From NCBI RefSeq assembly GCF_000739615.1, contig NZ_BATP01000003.1, positions 62,001 through 126,000 on the forward strand: a DNA stretch of 64,000 nt, written 5' to 3'. The position numbers and the translations under genes are program-made. The DNA is from Haloferula sp. BvORR071 (GTDB lineage Bacteria > Verrucomicrobiota > Verrucomicrobiia > Verrucomicrobiales > Akkermansiaceae). The notes under the pieces were generated by a model. The model saw nothing but the letters and a program-made list of their open reading frames with translations. It was not told the origin of the DNA and ran no database searches. Each line of letters opens with the position of its first letter. Positions within the stretch are counted from its first letter, which is position 1. Positions 11,086 through 39,391 of the stretch are shown here, piece by piece.

Positions 11086-11436
11086 TCAATGAACCACGAG
11101 GCCGCCTTGGGAGAGCTCGACGAAAGACGAATCGGCCAAGGCGGAGCTAATTGAGGGCCAATGCTTCTCAACCATCTCCAAGAGCTGACGGTTGGAAATG
11201 TTGCCCGTCGAAATGAGCAAGAGCTTCGGTGGGCTGGTCGTGAGGAGGTGGGAGTCCACGAAGTCCGAATCCTTGGTTACAACCACGAAGCCCTCCTTGT
11301 CCGCCAAGGCCCGGATGGCGCCGTCGCTGGTTCGGTTTCCCTCAGGGAGGTCGAGGGTGTGCCGACATTCATGACCAGCCTTGCCAAGTAGCGTGGCCAA
11401 AGTCTTCGGCAACTGCGCATCGACCAGAAACTTCAC
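11086..11436 (-). CDS. DUF5615 PIN-like protein (putative toxin)
   Basis: This 116-residue protein starts [21 protein letters not shown] and contains VVVTKDSDF and [13 protein letters not shown], the DUF5615 pattern of a compact PIN-like nuclease fold. The acidic residues in FLVDAQ and TKDSDF would be the metal ligands. The start is GTG at 11436 and overlaps the TGA of the upstream DUF433 gene by 4 bp (GTGA), so translation is probably coupled. In this family the DUF433/DUF5615 pair is regarded as toxin-antitoxin-like, with DUF5615 as the presumed RNase toxin. Activity here is inferred. Confidence 0.86.
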
Positions 11437-11675
11437 GCCGCGGGCAGTGGCTCGAAGCGTTTCACCCGGCTCAAGCGGGCGGCATAGGCGTGAGCGGCCC
11501 GAAGGTCATCCGACTCCAAATCCGGGTAATCCGTCAGAATCTCGGCTTCGGTGGTTTCCCCGCTGAGCAGATCCAGAAGAAACTCCACCGGATAGCGCAG
11601 CCCCCGGATGCAGGGTTTGCCGTGGCAAACCTCTGGCGAGGTGGTGATTCGCTTGAGCAGATCCTCGGCTGGCAT
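11433..11675 (-). CDS. DUF433 protein (putative antitoxin)
   Basis: This 80-residue protein matches DUF433: [28 protein letters not shown], then [31 protein letters not shown]433 is a winged-helix-like domain often encoded just upstream of DUF5615 and considered its antitoxin. It is the first gene of a two-gene unit and overlaps the next by 4 bp. It is divergent from the HAD hydrolase gene, with about 110 bp between the starts, where promoters for both must lie. Confidence 0.88.
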
Positions 11676-11786
11676 GCCCGGAAACTAAGGGATTTCAGGT
11701 TTCCCCGCAAGGCAGCATCGGGGGACCGCGACCGGCGGGATTCAGCTTGCGGGGCGGGGTGGGGGCTGGTTCGCTTCGGGCCGCCC

Positions 11787-32902: not shown

Positions 32903-33616
32903 ATGCACTCGGATACCCCACATATTTTGCGCGAGTTCGATCAAGCCTTCGCCTCCTTGAGAAACGAGGTCATCGCCATGGCCGGACAGGCCCGGCTGAA
33001 TCTGGAGCGCGCCATGCAGGGTCTGCTGCAGCGCGATCTGGAGCGCTGCAAGGCGGCGATCGCCGATGACGATGAAGTCGACGAAGCCGAGCTGCGGATC
33101 GACCGCATCGGCATGGAGACCCTGGTGCGCTTCCACCCGGTGGCCAGCGACCTGCGCCTGGTGATCACCACCATGAAGTGCGCCGCGAACCTCGAGCGGG
33201 TCTCCGACCATGCTACGAACATCGCCAAGCGCGCCCGCAAGATGCTCTCCCGCTCCGAGTGTGCGGAAGTTGCCTTCCTGGAGCCGCTCTATGCGCTGGC
33301 CGACCAGCAGCTCCGCGACGCGATGTCCGCCTACACGGACCGCAATGCCGAGCTCGGCGCGTCCCTGCAGCTCCGCGACAAGGACCTGGACAAGATGCAC
33401 AAGCGCCTGATCGCGACCTTTACCGCCCGTCTGGAAGAGGGTGGGGAGCGCGCGGAGGACTACCTCCACCTGGTCTTCGTGGCCCGCTCGCTGGAGCGCA
33501 TCGGCGACCTCGCGAAGAACATTGGCGAGGACGCGGTGTATCTGGACCAGGCGCGCGACATCCGGCACGACAAGCAGAACCGGCCACCGGTATCGGACGA
33601 GGTGCGGGCGGAGTGA
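32903..33616 (+). CDS. phoU: Phosphate signalling protein PhoU
   Basis: This 237-residue protein has the two PhoU repeats of three-helix bundles: residues about 15-115 (DDDEVDEAELRIDRIGMETL, HPVASDLRLVITTMKCAANLERVSDHATNIAKR) and about 125-220 (HLVFVARSLERIGDLAKNIGEDAVYL). The two E/DRxxDxxxN metal sites are intact. PhoU dampens PhoR signalling and affects Pst transport. It is 10 bp after pstB, and the HipA-like kinase gene starts 3 bp after its stop. Confidence 0.93.
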   Translation: MHSDTPHILREFDQAFASLRNEVIAMAGQARLNLERAMQGLLQRDLERCKAAIADDDEVDEAELRIDRIGMETLVRFHPVASDLRLVITTMKCAANLERVSDHATNIAKRARKMLSRSECAEVAFLEPLYALADQQLRDAMSAYTDRNAELGASLQLRDKDLDKMHKRLIATFTARLEEGGERAEDYLHLVFVARSLERIGDLAKNIGEDAVYLDQARDIRHDKQNRPPVSDEVRAE

Positions 33617-33619
33617 GCG

Positions 33620-34306
33620 ATGCGTGCGATTTTAGCCCGCTTCATTGAGACCTTCCGTGGCAGTTCCTTTCCGACCTTGTCGGAGACCCGGGACGGCGAG
33701 CAGGTCGTAATCAAGATGCGTGGCGCGGGGAACGGGGCAGGGGCCTTGCTTTCCGAGTTCCTGGTCAACCGCTTTGCCCATCTCAGCGGCCTGCCAGTCC
33801 CGGATGTGAGGATTGTCGAGATCGCCGCGGATCATCCTTGGGAATTCGGGACCGATGAGTTCGACGACCTGCTCCAGAAGAGCCCGGGGGCGAATCTAGG
33901 GATCTGTTGGATCCCGGAAGCGGCACAGCTCAGCGCGGAGCAGGCGAAGGCCTTGCCTGAAGAGTTCATCTCGCAGGTGGTGACCCTTGATCTTGTCTTC
34001 GCGAATCTCGATCGCAGCGCGGCGAGCTGCAATTTGCTGCGGGATTCAGATGGTCGCCGATGGATCATCGATCATGGCGGCTGCCGCTTTCTTTTCAGGC
34101 GGGCCACTGCTCCTGCGGCGAGCTTGCCTGAAGATCATATCTTCCAAGGCAGGGAGGATCTATTCGACATGGCGTGGCTGAAGCCACTGACACGTGAATT
34201 GGTCGAAGCGACCTTGGCCGAGGTCCCGGACTCGTGGCTGGCCGAGGAGGGCTTCACGCGGGAGGAGATCGGGGGATCATTGGCTTTGCTGCTGGCTTCG
34301 CGTTAA
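33620..34306 (+). CDS. HipA-like kinase domain protein
   Basis: This 228-residue protein resembles the compact HipA-like kinase family. It has VVIKMRGAGNGAGALLSEFLVNRFAHLSGLPVPDVRIVEI at the N-terminus with the ATP-anchoring Lys, a catalytic loop LDLVFANLDRSAASCNLL and a metal-site IIDHGGCRF. It lacks the N-terminal subdomain of full HipA and no HipB-type antitoxin is adjacent. Substrate is unknown. It begins 3 bp after phoU, suggesting co-transcription with the phosphate genes. Its 3' end overlaps the convergent primase gene by 30 bp. Confidence 0.78.
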   Translation: MRAILARFIETFRGSSFPTLSETRDGEQVVIKMRGAGNGAGALLSEFLVNRFAHLSGLPVPDVRIVEIAADHPWEFGTDEFDDLLQKSPGANLGICWIPEAAQLSAEQAKALPEEFISQVVTLDLVFANLDRSAASCNLLRDSDGRRWIIDHGGCRFLFRRATAPAASLPEDHIFQGREDLFDMAWLKPLTRELVEATLAEVPDSWLAEEGFTREEIGGSLALLLASR

Positions 34307-35275
34307 GCGGCCCAGCTCTAGCCACAGCACCCGCGACCACTGACCCGTGCCGGCGTGGCGCCAACCCGGCAGGCGGCAGGGGTGCTCGGGGCGGCCGATC
34401 AAGCCGGCGTCGATGCCCAGTTCGGTGGCGGTGAGCGCGAGCGACTCAAGGACCTCCGGCGGCGGCGTGTGGAACCAAGCATGGAGGCTTTTGCCGCCGG
34501 TCCAGAGGATGGCGGCGAGCTTCCAGCCAAGGTCTTCCCGGATCCAGCGGATCATGGCGAGGGAGTCGCGGAGGTGGGCCTGCTTCTGCTCTGCGGTAAT
34601 CGGCTTCACGCCGCCGAAGCCATCGAAGTCGAGCACGGTGTAGGGCGCGGCGATCACGGCGCTGGCGCAGCGGGAATCGGTGGCGGGCTGCCAGTGTGCG
34701 GGCGTGACCAGCGGGCCGACTTCGTTCTTCGGCACCTGCTGCCAGGTCGCGCAGCTTTGCCAGCGCGCGGCGTGGGTGCCGCCGGACTGATAGACCGCGC
34801 CGGTCCACAGCAGGGCCTCGGGCGGAAAGAGGGTGGCGAGGAAATGGCGGGGGTCGCTTTCCACCAGCTCGCCATCCGGGATCTGCGGTGAGTCGTGCCA
34901 GACATCGGCGAAGTCCCAAGAGTGGCGCGCGAGGATGGCGCGTAGTTCTTCGCGGGCATCTTCCTGGAGCTGTTGGCGATCGCGGAACTTGGCTTGCTCG
35001 CGGGAGTATTCCTCACGGCGGGCGCGGAGGCTGGCGAGGTCCTGAGGGAGACTCAGCTTCCGACGGATGCCAACGAGCTCGAAGATCCGGCGGCGATGGT
35101 CGCGGTCTCCGGGATGGGCGGCACAGGCGAACTTGCCGCTGGGGAAGATCACCAGATGCGCGCCGCTGCGGTCGTGTTCTTGTTCGGAGCAGGCAGGGCA
35201 GCGGGCGATCATGCGAGTGCCGGAGTGGCGCAGGCGCTCGAGTCGGGAAGGATCGAGGGAGAGATCGGAGGTCAT
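34277..35275 (-). CDS. Zinc-finger archaeo-eukaryotic-type primase (replication module)
   Basis: This 332-residue protein starts with a CHC2-like zinc ribbon (Cys26, Cys29, Cys51, His54 in RCPACSEQ ... FACAAHPGD). A charged helical linker (about 75-115) leads to an AEP-primase-like core: VLDFDG (Asp216 and Asp218), WTGGKSLHAWF (His265) and HPCRLPGWRH (about 298-307). That series matches the hDhD, sxH and RLPG motifs of plasmid and phage primases. It probably makes RNA or DNA primers for the element. The ATG at 35275 places palindrome copy 1 just upstream. The longer in-frame start at 35668 would read antisense-like junk through the ATPase gene. It overlaps the HipA-like gene by 30 bp at its 3' end. 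Confidence 0.75.
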   Translation of the reverse strand: MTSDLSLDPSRLERLRHSGTRMIARCPACSEQEHDRSGAHLVIFPSGKFACAAHPGDRDHRRRIFELVGIRRKLSLPQDLASLRARREEYSREQAKFRDRQQLQEDAREELRAILARHSWDFADVWHDSPQIPDGELVESDPRHFLATLFPPEALLWTGAVYQSGGTHAARWQSCATWQQVPKNEVGPLVTPAHWQPATDSRCASAVIAAPYTVLDFDGFGGVKPITAEQKQAHLRDSLAMIRWIREDLGWKLAAILWTGGKSLHAWFHTPPPEVLESLALTATELGIDAGLIGRPEHPCRLPGWRHAGTGQWSRVLWLELGRLTRSQQQSQ

Positions 35276-35297
35276 GGTAGCCGTGATGGTGGGAATC

Positions 35298-35339
35298 CGT
35301 CCATCCATCCATTGCCCTAGGGGAATGGATGGATGGACG
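35298..35339. repeat. Palindromic repeat copy 1 (CCAT/ATGG family)
   Basis: Arms 35298-35313 and 35324-35339 are perfect 16-bp inverted repeats built from three TCCA units. The centre is CCCTAGGG with one mismatched base pair outside it. It lies between the ATPase gene stop and the primase gene start. There is no T-tract, so it is unlikely to be a simple terminator. Confidence 0.9.
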
Positions 35340-35391
35340 CGTGGATGTAGAGATGAAGTGGGAAGGAAGAAGGGACGCGTCTTCTTCCTTC

Positions 35392-36504
35392 TCAGCCGTC
35401 CCCATCTTCCCGCCACCAGAACTTGCCCTTGTCGTCCTGCACGATGTGCTCGGGATAGCTCTTGATGATCTGATAGGCCTTGCTGCGCTCGCAGACCCCA
35501 GCAGCTGTTAGGCGGGCCGCCGCGCTCTTCTGCGTCTCCCCGCACATCCCGCGCAGGGCCTTGGCAATCTCCTCGAAGGTCCCGCGGCGGTTCACGCCAT
35601 CGCCATCGAGGAAGGCCTCCATGTCGAAGTCCAGTGCAGGATCGAAGAGCCCATTCCGCCGGAACCATGCACTGGGCGCGCCTTCCTTGCCGTCATTGTT
35701 CTTGCAGCAAGTGAGCACCACTGTGTCGTCGGTCACGTCGGTATTCACCGGCTCCAGGGCGAAGACACAGCGTGCCGCGGCACCGATCTGATAGCTGCCC
35801 GCCAACTCGTGCAGCAGGTCGCGACCGTGCTTGCGGATGGTCTCGCTGCCCTTCTTGCGCATATGGTGGATCACCATGATCGCCGGCTTGTGCTCCGGCG
35901 CTTCCGGCAAGCACTCGAAGATGCCATCCAGCGCGCTGCGGTAGTCGGCTTGCTTGTCGCCATCCGCCGCGCGGTTCCAGGGATCGATGATGACGAGGCC
36001 CGGCTGGAAGGCGGCGATCAGCTCGGTGAGCTCCATGCGAAAGGCCGCTTCCTGGAAGGCCAGCCCGTAGGCCGGGGGTGGGGTGATCTTGATCCACTCG
36101 TCCAGGCCGCGCTCGGGCATCGCATCCCGCAACTCTTGCTTCAGGCGGAAGGGGCCGTTCTCGCACTGGATCACCAGGCTGCGGAAGCGGCTGTGCACGC
36201 GGTGGCCCAGCCATTCCACGCCACGCGCCCCGGCAATCGCGAGACCAAGTGCAGCGCGGCTCTTGCCGACGCCCGGCCAACCTCCAAGCACGGTGAGGCT
36301 ACCACGGGTGAGATGGCAATCGCCCATCAGCACGAAGTCCTCCGGCGGCTGGTAGTCCATGAACTCGGAGGGCGTCCAAGTGGTGAGGTAGGAGCGCTTC
36401 GGCGGCGGCGGTGGCTCGGGCGGCTTGCCAGCGCCAGCGCGCAGGGTCTCGCGGGTGATGGCCTTGGGCGTGGCTTCTTCGGAGGATGGAGGCAGGGTGA
36501 TCAT
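35392..36504 (-). CDS. RepA-like AAA ATPase (replicative helicase-type)
   Basis: This 370-residue protein has a Walker A GGWPGVGKS at residues 74-82, a Walker B VIIDPW at 171-176 and a sensor region VIHHMRKKGS at 211-220, the pattern of RecA-fold RepA/AAA_25 helicases of plasmids and phage. A winged-helix-like C-terminus (SAAARLTAAGVCERSKAYQIIK, about 325-350) may bind DNA. It probably acts as the helicase of the small replication module with the primase downstream and the excisionase-like HTH protein upstream, whose gene it overlaps by 4 bp. Palindrome copy 1 separates it from the primase gene. Confidence 0.82.
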   Translation of the reverse strand: MITLPPSSEEATPKAITRETLRAGAGKPPEPPPPPKRSYLTTWTPSEFMDYQPPEDFVLMGDCHLTRGSLTVLGGWPGVGKSRAALGLAIAGARGVEWLGHRVHSRFRSLVIQCENGPFRLKQELRDAMPERGLDEWIKITPPPAYGLAFQEAAFRMELTELIAAFQPGLVIIDPWNRAADGDKQADYRSALDGIFECLPEAPEHKPAIMVIHHMRKKGSETIRKHGRDLLHELAGSYQIGAAARCVFALEPVNTDVTDDTVVLTCCKNNDGKEGAPSAWFRRNGLFDPALDFDMEAFLDGDGVNRRGTFEEIAKALRGMCGETQKSAAARLTAAGVCERSKAYQIIKSYPEHIVQDDKGKFWWREDGDG

Positions 36505-36881
36505 GCGACACCTCCTTCCTGGCTCTCGTTCTTCTCGTTGCTATCGCCACGGCTCTTCTCCCACAGCGTTTCCAGGTGCGCGATCAAGCTGGCCCGGCAG
36601 ATCAAGCGCGTGCCGTGCGGCTGCTCCTTGCTGCGTAGGGAGACGGACTTGATCTGTCCTTCCGCGATCATCGCATAGAGCCGCGTGCGGCCGATGCCGT
36701 AGCGGGCCGCGACTTCTTTCGGGCGGATCCAATCGGCGGGTGCCTGGGGATCGAGCAGGGTTGCCGGAATGCCAGTGCCCTTGAGGTAGCCCTCAGGCGG
36801 CGGGGTGGGGGTGGCTTTGCTGTCGCCGTTTGCCTCGGTCTTGGCCGTGGCGTTCATGTTGTTCGCTGTCATGAACGCCAT
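36501..36881 (-). CDS. Excisionase-like helix-turn-helix DNA-binding protein
   Basis: This protein of about 126 residues has a MerR/excisionase-type HTH: ADWIRPKEVAARYGIGRTRLYAMI, then GQIKSVSLRSKEQPHGTRLI and an ASLIAHLE helix. Such proteins start or control phage and plasmid modules. The N-terminus (about 45 residues) is low-complexity and the start is uncertain: 36881, 36872 and 36950 are in frame. 36881 is used because 36950 lies inside palindrome copy 2. It is the first gene of the unit and overlaps the ATPase gene by 4 bp. Confidence 0.75.
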   Translation of the reverse strand: MAFMTANNMNATAKTEANGDSKATPTPPPEGYLKGTGIPATLLDPQAPADWIRPKEVAARYGIGRTRLYAMIAEGQIKSVSLRSKEQPHGTRLICRASLIAHLETLWEKSRGDSNEKNESQEGGVA

Positions 36882-36934
36882 CGGAACATCACGGACGCCG
36901 GTCGCGTAACGGGCGCAACTCGGGATCGGCGCTG

Positions 36935-36986
36935 TCCGCCGTCCATCCATCCATTTGCCTAAGGGAATGGATGGATGGACGGCGGA
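36935..36986. repeat. Palindromic repeat copy 2 (CCAT/ATGG family)
   Basis: Arms 36935-36955 and 36966-36986 are perfect 21-bp inverted repeats, again three TCCA units extended by CCGCCG/CGGCGG. The 10-base centre has a TA axis flanked by partly mismatched bases. It sits in the divergent space between the HTH gene and the secreted-protein gene. Confidence 0.92.
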
Positions 36987-37034
36987 GAGATCGCTTCGAA
37001 TTGCATCGCGGCTCGCGGCGTCTCAGAATGCGAT

Positions 37035-37847
37035 ATGCAAGCGGAAACCAGACAGACGTTGAAGCTCTGTGCGATTATGGTCATCGCCTGCCTGCTGCTA
37101 ACCGCGCTGTGTCCGGCTCAAACTCCGAACGCACCTCAGCCCCAAACCGAAACCGGCCCGGAACCCGCCGCCGCCGAGCGGTCGCCCTTCTACCGGGCGC
37201 CGGCTGGCTTCATCAATTCACCGTGGTTGGTTTGGGATAAGTATCTCGGCTACTTCGCGGGAACCTGGACGACGGCCACGGGTGGCTTCCGGGGCGTGCT
37301 CGCCAACCGCGGCGTCAAATGGGAAACCGGCGGCGAATGGCCAGATCTGGATGCGCTTGGGGAAATCGAGCTTTCGGAGCAGATGGACTTCCTGAGCGCG
37401 AGCCACCGCTATGAGCTTTTCCTAGGGGACCTCCCCGAGAAGAACCTGTTGCTCATCCGCCACTCCGCGGATCCCAAGGCGGTTCCGGAATATCGTGTTC
37501 TCCTTCGCAATGGCTGGTCGCGGACTCCGCGCAAGGAGGATGACTTTCTCAGTAGCGAGCAGACCGGGTGGAGACTCGCCTTTCTCAAAATGTCCGGCGA
37601 GTGGAAGTCGGAGAAGGGAGGCATGAGCTTTCGGCTGAACTACCGCACGCTGACCTTCACGGAGGGTGGCCCTTGGCCGGAGGCCACGGGAAGACAAATG
37701 CTGCTTGGGGAACAGCCCGGATTTATCATCGGGGGCAAACGCTGCCTCTTCAAATACCTCAATGATAACTTGAAGGAGGTAAGCTTATTTCGCGAAGGCG
37801 AGGGCCCCGACGAATGGGAAATGGTGAAGTGCACCCTCGTGAAGTAG
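37035..37847 (+). CDS. Hypothetical secreted protein between palindromes 2 and 3
   Basis: This 270-residue protein has a signal-peptide-like helix (LCAIMVIACLLLTALCPAQ, about residues 10-28) and a Pro/Glu-rich linker. A soluble domain follows (WLVWDKYLGYFAGTW, YELFLGDLPEKNLLLIRHSADP, FIIGGKRCLFKYL). The LTALC sequence lacks the small residue before Cys needed for a good lipobox. No family was recognised. The ATG at 37035 is used, since an in-frame ATG at 36975 lies within palindrome 2. The gene is alone on its strand, bounded by palindromes 2 and 3, so it may be cargo of the element. Confidence 0.7.
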   Translation: MQAETRQTLKLCAIMVIACLLLTALCPAQTPNAPQPQTETGPEPAAAERSPFYRAPAGFINSPWLVWDKYLGYFAGTWTTATGGFRGVLANRGVKWETGGEWPDLDALGEIELSEQMDFLSASHRYELFLGDLPEKNLLLIRHSADPKAVPEYRVLLRNGWSRTPRKEDDFLSSEQTGWRLAFLKMSGEWKSEKGGMSFRLNYRTLTFTEGGPWPEATGRQMLLGEQPGFIIGGKRCLFKYLNDNLKEVSLFREGEGPDEWEMVKCTLVK

Positions 37848-37863
37848 GCATGAATGGCGGGTT

Positions 37864-37903
37864 AAGGCAGCTCGAACCGTCCAAAGGCAGCTCGACCCGT
37901 CCA
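37864..37903. repeat. 20-bp tandem repeat beside palindrome copy 3
   Basis: Two adjacent 20-bp units (37864-37883 and 37884-37903) differ at one base. The second unit runs into the left arm of palindrome copy 3. This may mark an insertion or replication-slippage event. Confidence 0.85.
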
Positions 37904-37940
37904 TCCGTCCATTCCCCTAGGCAAATGGATGGATGGACGG
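37898..37940. repeat. Palindromic repeat copy 3 (CCAT/ATGG family)
   Basis: The core arms 37898-37913 and 37924-37939 pair over 16 positions with one G/T wobble, around a CTAG-containing centre (37914-37923). It lies after the secreted-protein gene and before the xylA terminator. Confidence 0.88.
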
Positions 37941-37958
37941 CGGACGAAGCCTTCACCC

Positions 37959-37998
37959 CAAAAAAGAAACGGCCCGGGACTCGCGTCCCGGGCCGTTT
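37959..37998 (-). terminator. Terminator of xylA
   Basis: A perfect 14-bp stem (37967-37980 with 37985-37998) closes on a TCGC loop. On the minus strand it is followed by a T-rich run (TTTCTTTTTTGG). It lies 86 bp beyond the xylA stop and may also stop plus-strand transcripts. Confidence 0.82.
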
Positions 37999-38083
37999 GG
38001 CACCCGTTGGAAGGTGATCTTTGTCGGAGAGCTTGGAGCTGAATTGATTGATTAATTAATCAGCCCGAGAACTCCGCCGCGGA

Positions 38084-39391
38084 TCACAGAAGTTCATTGA
38101 GGATATTCTCCATCAGCTCTTGGCGTCCGGAGGCCACCACGGGCTCGCCGTTGCGGAGCGCCCAGTCGCTGAGTTGGTCGAAGTCCATCTTGCCGGCTTC
38201 GATCTCCGCGCCGATGCCGTTGTCCCAGGAGGAGTAGCGGGTCTTGACGAAGTTCGAGATACGGCCGTCCTCGCGGATTGCTGCGGCGACGCGGAGGCCA
38301 CGGGCGAAGGCATCCATGCCGCCGATGTGGGCGTGGAAGAGATCGACCGGCTCGTGCGATTCACGGCGGCGCTTGGCGTCGAAGTTCAGGCCACCGGTGG
38401 TGAAGCCGCCCATCTCCAGCAACTTCAGCATCACCTTGGTGGTGCCGTAGAGGTCGCTCGGGAATTGGTCGGTGTCCCAGCCCAGCAGTTCGTCGCCTTG
38501 GTTGGCGTCGATCGAGCCGAGCGCACCTGCGTCCATGGCCACGGTCAGTTCGTGCTCCATGGTGTGGCCGGCCAGCGTGGCGTGGTTGGTCTCGATGTTC
38601 AGCTTGAAGTGATCGAGCAGGTTATACTGCCGCAGGAAGTTGAGGCAGGCTGCGGAGTCCGAGTCGTACTGGTGGGTGGAAGGTTCGCGCGGCTTGGGCT
38701 CGATGTAGAACTGGCCGGTGAAGCCGATCTTCTTCTTATAGTCCACGGCCATGTGCAGCAGCGCGGCCAAGTGGTCGAGCTCACGCTTCATGTCGGTGTT
38801 CAGCAGCGTGGCGTAGCCTTCGCGGCCACCCCAGAAGGTGTAGCCTTCACCGCCCAGCGCGTGGGTGGCGTCCATTGCTGCCTTCACCTGGGCCGCGCCG
38901 TAGGCGAAGACCCGGGCATCCGGCGAGGTGCCGGCACCCTGCGAGTAGCGCGGGTGGGAGAAGAGGCAGGCAGTGCCCCAGAGGAGCTTCTTGCCGGTCG
39001 CCTTCTGCAGGCCACCGAGGTGCGCCACCACGTCGTTGAGCGCCTGGGTCGACTTCGCCAAGTCGTTCAGCTCCGGCGCGATGTCGCGGTCGTGGAAGCA
39101 GTAGTAGTCGATGTCGATCTTATCGAGGAACTCGAAGAAGACGTCCGCACGCTTCTTGGCGTTGTCCACCGAGTTGCTGTGGTCGTCCCACGGCGTGACT
39201 GCGGTGCCGGGGCCGAATGGGTCGGCCAGCTCGTTGCGCATCACGTGCCAGTAGGCAGCGCCGAAGCGGAAGTGCTCGCGCATTGTCTTCCCTTCGATCA
39301 CCTCGTCGGGATTGTATTGTTTGAACGCGAAAGGGTTCTTGGATTTGGAACCTTCGTAAGCGATCTTGGGTATGTCCGGGAAGTAGGCCAT
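38084..39391 (-). CDS. xylA: Xylose isomerase
   Basis: This 435-residue protein shows xylose isomerase motifs: FHDRDIAPE with the catalytic His, [34 protein letters not shown] with metal ligands, and [19 protein letters not shown]. Length and sequence fit the group II enzymes of about 440 residues. It converts xylose to xylulose (and glucose to fructose) with Mg or Mn. The ATG at 39391 ([14 protein letters not shown]) was chosen, since a 41-residue upstream extension is not family-like. No xylulokinase is next to it. Confidence 0.95.

Follow-up and report, generated by a model that had tools for sequence, protein, structure and literature searches.

Palindromes with a conserved apex as probable ends of small mobile elements associated with a replication-type gene module in Haloferula sp. 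BvORR071

A window of 64,000 nucleotides from Haloferula sp. BvORR071 (contig NZ_BATP01000003.1, positions 62,001 to 126,000) contains three long palindromes, at 35298-35339 (palindrome 1), 36935-36986 (palindrome 2) and 37897-37940 (palindrome 3), beside genes for a helix-turn-helix (HTH) protein, an AAA_25 ATPase and a primase-like protein. Judged from sequence comparison, it is well supported that the palindromes are hairpin termini of mobile elements resembling miniature inverted-repeat transposable elements (MITEs), and on balance we lean towards the fuller reading, in which the copying or movement of these elements is probably the work of the replication-type module. We infer from association that the HTH/ATPase/primase-like operon supplies the trans-acting machinery. 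In the window, palindrome 2, an orphan gene and palindrome 3 form a clear element of 1.0 kb, and palindrome 1 is a solo end with no partner on the primase side. Among the options offered in an earlier note on this DNA was that of mobile-cassette termini or MITE-like repeats, and this option is well supported by repeat copies that end at palindromes, by an empty site and by nested pairs. Genomes, contigs and loci are cited below by G, C and L numbers.

In the proposed mechanism, an element would consist of two palindromes, mostly mirrored, with non-coding DNA or one variable cargo gene between them. The operon products would recognize the extruded hairpin through its conserved apex and not through the arm sequence, and the element would be copied from hairpin to hairpin by a primase/helicase mode of replication in which a transposase has no part. 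If copying proceeds through a folded-back end, the arms could change and yet stay complementary; this would also account for copies in which the apex is flipped and the arms are unchanged.

A conserved apex within changing arms

The arms are 21 bp long and 95% complementary in palindrome 1, up to 26 bp in palindrome 2 (with 24-bp core arms that are 96% complementary), and 22 bp and 86% complementary in palindrome 3; the centers are CCTAGG or CCTAAGG. With up to two mismatches, the arm TCCATCCATCCATT has seven matches in the window against 0.37 expected (100 shuffles, maximum 3), all of them in or overlapping the three palindromes. The palindromes are thus far above chance, and the earlier note was right to place three of them here and to see none elsewhere in the window. 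It also placed them correctly at gene boundaries: palindrome 1 (apex orientation, minus strand) lies in the gap between the primase-like and ATPase genes, palindrome 2 (minus) upstream of the HTH gene and palindrome 3 (plus) downstream of the orphan gene. A 20-bp tandem duplication (37864-37903, 95% identical) adjoins palindrome 3.

Counted across the whole 7.8-Mb genome, the exact pattern occurs at palindromes 1 and 2 only, palindrome 3 being missed because of one mismatch, and a BLAST search with palindrome 2 gives long matches at the window site only, the others being 14-20 bp. Covariance models recovered further members with other arms at C65 (three) and C62 (two), and the genome holds eight family sites at E<1e-6; two weak C9 matches with the first model are absent with the second. 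Rfam at the gathering threshold matched no known RNA in 33500-38200, and a 55-bp stretch including palindrome 2 was unmatched in PLSDB and INPHARED. A wider contig scan with the strict arm pattern gave one match, in an Alistipes contig.

Across loci, the family shares a conserved, asymmetric apex of about TCCCCTAGGG, set inside long arms that differ from locus to locus; most palindromes have a direction because the apex is asymmetric. Arms found around the common apex at ATPase loci include CGTCC, CCCGTCC, GTCCAGTCTGTCCAG, TGTCCTGTTTGT, GTCTCGTCTTGT and TTTTCCATTCC. In an alignment of a hand-chosen set of 44 palindromes, with stems of about 16 bp, 93.5% of cells are paired, compared with 31-47% after a shift of the partner by 1-3 columns, and 13 of the 16 pairs have changed on both sides. 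A first set of 30 palindromes gave similar values (96.3% paired, double changes in 11 of 16 pairs). Some arms are found again unchanged at distant loci, next to other neighbors.

This recurrence bears on the idea that the palindromes are regulatory or terminator hairpins, i.e. operators of the HTH protein or mRNA ends, which local recombination has copied. All three window palindromes are intergenic, the HTH gene stands beside them, and hairpins of such length are able to end transcription. The idea seems nonetheless quite improbable to us, since the arms are wholly different between modules with near-identical HTH proteins, identical arms have other neighbors at distant loci, and the similarity among the repeat copies in G019 described below stops at the palindromes. 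The two modules of G006 encode HTH proteins that are 97% identical over 65 aa next to unrelated arms, suggesting that the HTH protein is probably not the reader of the arms.

A few further palindromes were encountered at the margins of the family. In G064, solitary palindromes with a CCTAGG-type center and quite different arms are present in the 4430 region of L150 and at 9169 of L051, with no module found, and the family may be wider than our models see. An array of overlapping palindromes at L039 3990-4030, composed of ATAGGTCCTATA-like units, is of another kind. A pattern scan of IMG/VR detected three near-identical contigs of one phage, each with a single family palindrome in apparently non-coding DNA (L194 7247-7292), and a fourth contig from a close relative that keeps the arms with one apex change (L196 7548-7593).

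Palindrome pairs and the DNA that they enclose

Four copies of a non-coding repeat of 340-400 bp in G019, E1-E4 (L034 17514-17898, 15721-16119 and 13580-13960; L035 about 11340-11680), run from palindrome to palindrome. Pairwise matches are 69-78% identical, the similarity is confined to the interval between the outer palindrome edges, and the flanks are unrelated. The two ends carry different arms, ATCC on the left and CGTCC on the right, each end being itself a palindrome; E3 at its left end and E2 at its right end have an inverted apex in unchanged arms. The five loci found in G131 are without exception pairs, with starts about 210-450 bp apart; mirroring is clear in four, and in the fifth (L145) one apex is damaged. 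Nested pairs are present at L048 of G006, where the decayed outer arms resemble those of the module at L037 and the inner arms those of the module at L038. Taken together, the repeat copies and the nesting imply that palindrome pairs also spread.

We tallied 17 pairs, leaving out the L036 and L049 clusters, the T-rich palindromes of L034 and the tandem array of L035. Twelve are mirrored, three are not (E1, E2 and E4) and two are ambiguous (the inner L048 pair and L145); with the ambiguous pairs taken as misses and 25% expected, the mirrored excess has p=1e-4. What the pairs bracket varies from case to case, being either non-coding DNA (about 140-450 bp) or a single small gene. Other cargo genes, which the earlier note had suggested looking for, are bordered elsewhere: the enclosed products are a membrane-type protein (L041), a DUF2726 protein (L052) and, by our reading, putative lipoprotein-like (L047) and PEP-CTERM-like (L035) proteins. 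The eight bracketed cargo proteins have no mutual similarity (BLASTP, 0.05), and the DUF2726 protein is the only one of the eight with a Pfam match. In the window, the cargo is the orphan gene at 37035-37847 (plus strand; 270 aa from this start, longest open reading frame 290 aa), the product of which was unmatched in Pfam, PHROGs, NCBIfam and PADLOC at the thresholds used.

Four elements of G131 (L039, L040, L146 and L147) have a similar GA/CT-rich hairpin in the middle, near AGATAGCGTTCTCTCTC, and the interior of L147 folds with z scores of -12 and -10 on the two strands. Near the G019 module, L035 12438-13161 comprises tandem units of about 192 bp with one palindrome each.

Inverted doublets in intergenic space are also formed by repetitive extragenic palindromes (REPs), as described in the paper on REP doublets forming hairpins (REPINs) (PMC3116915). 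The palindromes could then be REP/REPIN-type repeats moved by an IS200-like transposase (Y1; REP-associated tyrosine transposase, RAYT), with the module as a bystander. A subgroup of Y1 genes, about 80% identical to one another, is located 2.0 kb (L041 11101-11553), 2.2 kb (L037 13124-13576) and 4.1 kb (L180 4527-4976) from the nearest palindrome; these genes are flanked by other hairpins. We give this reading little credence, because GTAG occurs at the foot of 0 of the 44 palindromes, Y1 genes are present in 21 of 21 genomes searched, most of them without palindromes, no CCTAGG-centered palindrome was found at 20 chosen Y1 loci, and the four Y1 flanks read carry other hairpins. The tests made, on the GTAG tag and on the flanks of Y1 genes at the chosen loci, led us to reject a REP identity.

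To the hairpin-ended elements can be added an empty site. We compared the xylA neighborhoods of ten relatives, in seven of which phoU was not found there; in the three others (G019, G129 and G120, of the same genus) phoU directly follows xylA, and a 4.3-kb island at 33617-37960 is absent from this junction. The insertion is limited by the phoU stop codon (33616) and by the xylA terminator (about 37961), and it contains the module, the orphan gene and the HipA_2-like gene described below. A conserved xylA terminator hairpin at 37967-37998 lies outside the island and marks its edge, about 20 bp from palindrome 3. The names xylA, phoU, pst and pdxH are presumptive, given by our reading of the sequences. 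The cassette at L047 is likewise missing at the corresponding place in G006, where the ends cannot be placed because of strong divergence of the intergenic DNA. For L146 of G131, no empty site was drawn because the upstream gene was not found adjacent to pdxH in the 19 other loci examined.

The replication-type module and its association with the palindromes

ATPase homologues are present in 6 of 145 family genomes, at nine loci: seven in G000, G006, G019 and G131, and partial ones in G130 and G072. At 9 of 9 loci a palindrome lies 3-140 bp from one end of the ATPase gene. The nearest palindrome is downstream of the gene in eight; in G072 it precedes the 5' end of the ATPase gene, in the space that separates it from the primase-like gene, and the model that predicted this site had not been trained on it. 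Palindromes at E<1e-6 occur in 6 of 6 module genomes and in 1 of the 139 others (G133), so that the link to a replication module drawn in the earlier note is real. The first model alone matched 5 of 57 genomes, our own included, one of them (G064) weakly. Some stand-alone elements of G131, G006 and G019 have the arms of a module in their own genome. Of 387 genomes sampled across the phylum, five have ATPase matches at E≤1e-30; the two of these that are outside the family, G155 and G164 (L062-L064), carry more distant ATPase relatives with no palindrome beside the gene.

In the window, the ATPase gene (35392-36504, minus strand, 370 aa) can be securely assigned to AAA_25, a RecA/RepA/DnaB-like group (PF13481, E=5e-21), and its product also matches primase/helicase and DnaB-like families of PHROGs; no match was obtained against PDB sequences at 0.01. 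The HTH gene (36501-36881, minus) encodes an excisionase-like DNA-binding protein of the HTH_17 family (PF12728, E=5.7e-07; PHROGs excisionase families, E=7e-06 and 0.002). The primase-like gene (34277-35275, minus, 332 aa with the chosen start) has N-terminal zinc-ribbon-like cysteines and DFDG and GGKSLH motifs. These motifs and the zinc-ligand-like cysteines are conserved, and we take the combination to be archaeo-eukaryotic-primase-like. Over all pairs, the ratio of nonsynonymous to synonymous rates (dN/dS, NG86) is 0.22-0.41 in the ATPase gene and 0.15-0.51 in the primase-like gene, rough values because dS often exceeds 1; both genes look as if kept by selection.

Also inside the island, a HipA_2-like kinase gene (33620-34306, plus; PF20613, E=1.1e-11) lies directly against the stop codon of phoU and overlaps with the primase-like gene at that gene's end. 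In PADLOC its product matches PDC-M66A (E=2e-09), and a match to mad1 was obtained for the HTH protein (E=0.0024); the ATPase, primase-like and orphan proteins are unmatched there, and we rejected a defense system. The gene downstream of the orphan gene, named xylA, belongs to the AP_endonuc_2 family.

Such a gene set beside mostly mirrored hairpins could also indicate that the palindromes are ssi- or origin-like replication start sites of an integrated plasmid- or satellite-like replicon, recognized by the primase as RepB' of RSF1010 recognizes ssiA and ssiB; stand-alone pairs would then be remnants of lost replicons and not mobile units. Being mostly in mirrored pairs, the hairpins stand one per strand. 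RepB' is reported to recognize 40-nt hairpin sites, one on each strand (PMC4434180), so that by analogy its sites may match mirrored pairs beside a primase-like gene. AT-rich stretches between the palindromes in L036-L038 and a putative tyrosine integrase near the G072 module, read from its sequence alone, are consistent with this view. We consider it unlikely as a full explanation, because four homologous palindrome-ended copies, nesting and varied cargo look mobile and not like remnants, and because no relative of the ATPase was found in the plasmid, phage or viral collections. With the ATPase unmatched in PLSDB and INPHARED and no confirmed relative in IMG/VR, we rejected a plasmid or phage origin for it. 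As for the origin sites suggested in the earlier note, iterons do not fit since the window copies are separate hairpins set apart, not a tandem array (the L035 array of a relative is the exception), and origin sites stand only as a possible part of the mechanism. The origin-site and mobile-element readings may indeed be parts of one mechanism.

Several observations weigh against hairpin-ended elements mobilized by this module. The link to the module is one of association, which is not the same as action. The Fisher value for the distribution given above is p=6e-10 (p=2e-8 at E≤0.01, where G062, G064 and G078 also have matches), and it overstates the case because module loci were among the sources of the palindrome models R1 and R2 and because the genomes are related. 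The matches in G062 (3e-6), G078 and G064 are weaker and occur without a module, and G133 has palindromes with no module found in an assembly that is 61% complete. For the TTTTCC class of arms (G000, G019 and G133) and for the L036 cluster (G006), the genome concerned has no module whose arms match, and the phage with the palindrome shows no module in the three pieces searched. At L037, the palindrome nearest to the ATPase gene is decayed and the intact ones start about 0.22 kb off; the modules at L037 and L041 have no primase-like gene beside the ATPase gene.

The structural data point in the same direction, as an archaeo-eukaryotic primase fold can be assigned only weakly to the modeled primase-like protein. 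No Pfam primase family matched it, its best match among PDB sequences is a weak one to PrimPol (E=0.13), and Foldseek returned top matches including LigD polymerase and Pri1 at E 0.4-0.6, none at 0.001. The mean predicted local distance difference test (pLDDT) scores of the models, 67.6 for the primase-like protein and 53.0 for the ATPase, are too poor for a firm fold of either protein. At the DNA level, no target-site duplication was seen by eye in the flanks read, where one of 1-3 bp could escape, and no transposase bounded by such palindromes was found in the loci read, the only genome-wide transposase search being that for Y1. The island has no palindrome at its phoU end, and therefore the palindromes do not bracket the whole island. 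Finally, G-T and A-C pairs number 24 and 26 in the arms (11 and 23 with the apex-adjacent pair left out); lacking a G-T excess, the arms give nothing that favors folding of the strand as oriented, and strand-specific folding was rejected.

A more specific proposal, which we put forward tentatively and hold to be doubtful, is that of a transposase-less mobile family in which an apex-reading primase-helicase-HTH module acts in trans to multiply elements with hairpin ends, whether or not these carry a cargo gene. If true, bacteria would have a counterpart of hairpin-primed (rolling-hairpin-like) replication, and fold-back copying would preserve the complementarity of the arms and leave their sequence free. 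Elements with hairpin ends so closely linked to a module present a concrete, testable candidate for transposase-free movement, and movement driven by the module would explain small orphan genes in intergenic sites. Among the literature matches listed, no title or abstract opening describes these elements. PMC5862659 reports that primase/helicase modules are widespread in bacterial mobile elements and that families joining archaeo-eukaryotic-type primases to RepA-type helicases are known in them.

Comparison with known systems

Like REPINs and the REP/bacterial interspersed mosaic element (BIME) repeats associated with RAYT, as described in PMC3116915 and PMC3733652, our palindromes form intergenic inverted doublets with compensatory changes. 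Relative to the same descriptions, they differ in having no GTAG tag, few copies and longer arms, in conserving the apex and not the foot, and in not flanking the Y1 genes examined. A second group of small palindromic repeats, tagged with CGTC, is reported in PMC3733652 to lack a dedicated transposase or known mobilizing enzyme and to have short stems and loops of 4-5 nt. Our family is likewise palindromic, with no transposase bounded by such palindromes found in the loci read, and CGTC occurs near either foot in 23 of 44 palindromes; relative to the repeats in PMC3733652, the tag is not constant or unpaired but lies at or in the stem, and the stems (about 16 bp) are longer.

The resemblance to MITEs is closer in overall organization. 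The palindrome elements are short, mostly non-coding and bounded by inverted ends, with several diverged copies per genome in unrelated flanks; the four G019 copies combine repetition, inverted-repeat ends and unrelated flanks. Some (L040 and L147) have extended terminal inverted repeats, and the interiors of L147, E2 and L040 are strongly self-folding. Unlike in MITEs, the ends are palindromes themselves, their apex conserved and their arms changing; target-site duplications were not noticed, no transposase with matching ends was found in the loci read, and three interiors (L038, L146 and the inner element of L048) fold no better than shuffles.

The replication module of RSF1010-type plasmids consists of RepA, RepB' and RepC acting with ssiA and ssiB. 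The module described here differs from it in being chromosomal, in that palindrome pairs without a module exist, and in that the primase fold is putative. What the two appear to have in common is a RecA/RepA-like ATPase (here PF13481, AAA_25), a primase-like protein and a DNA-binding protein, encoded beside mirrored hairpins.

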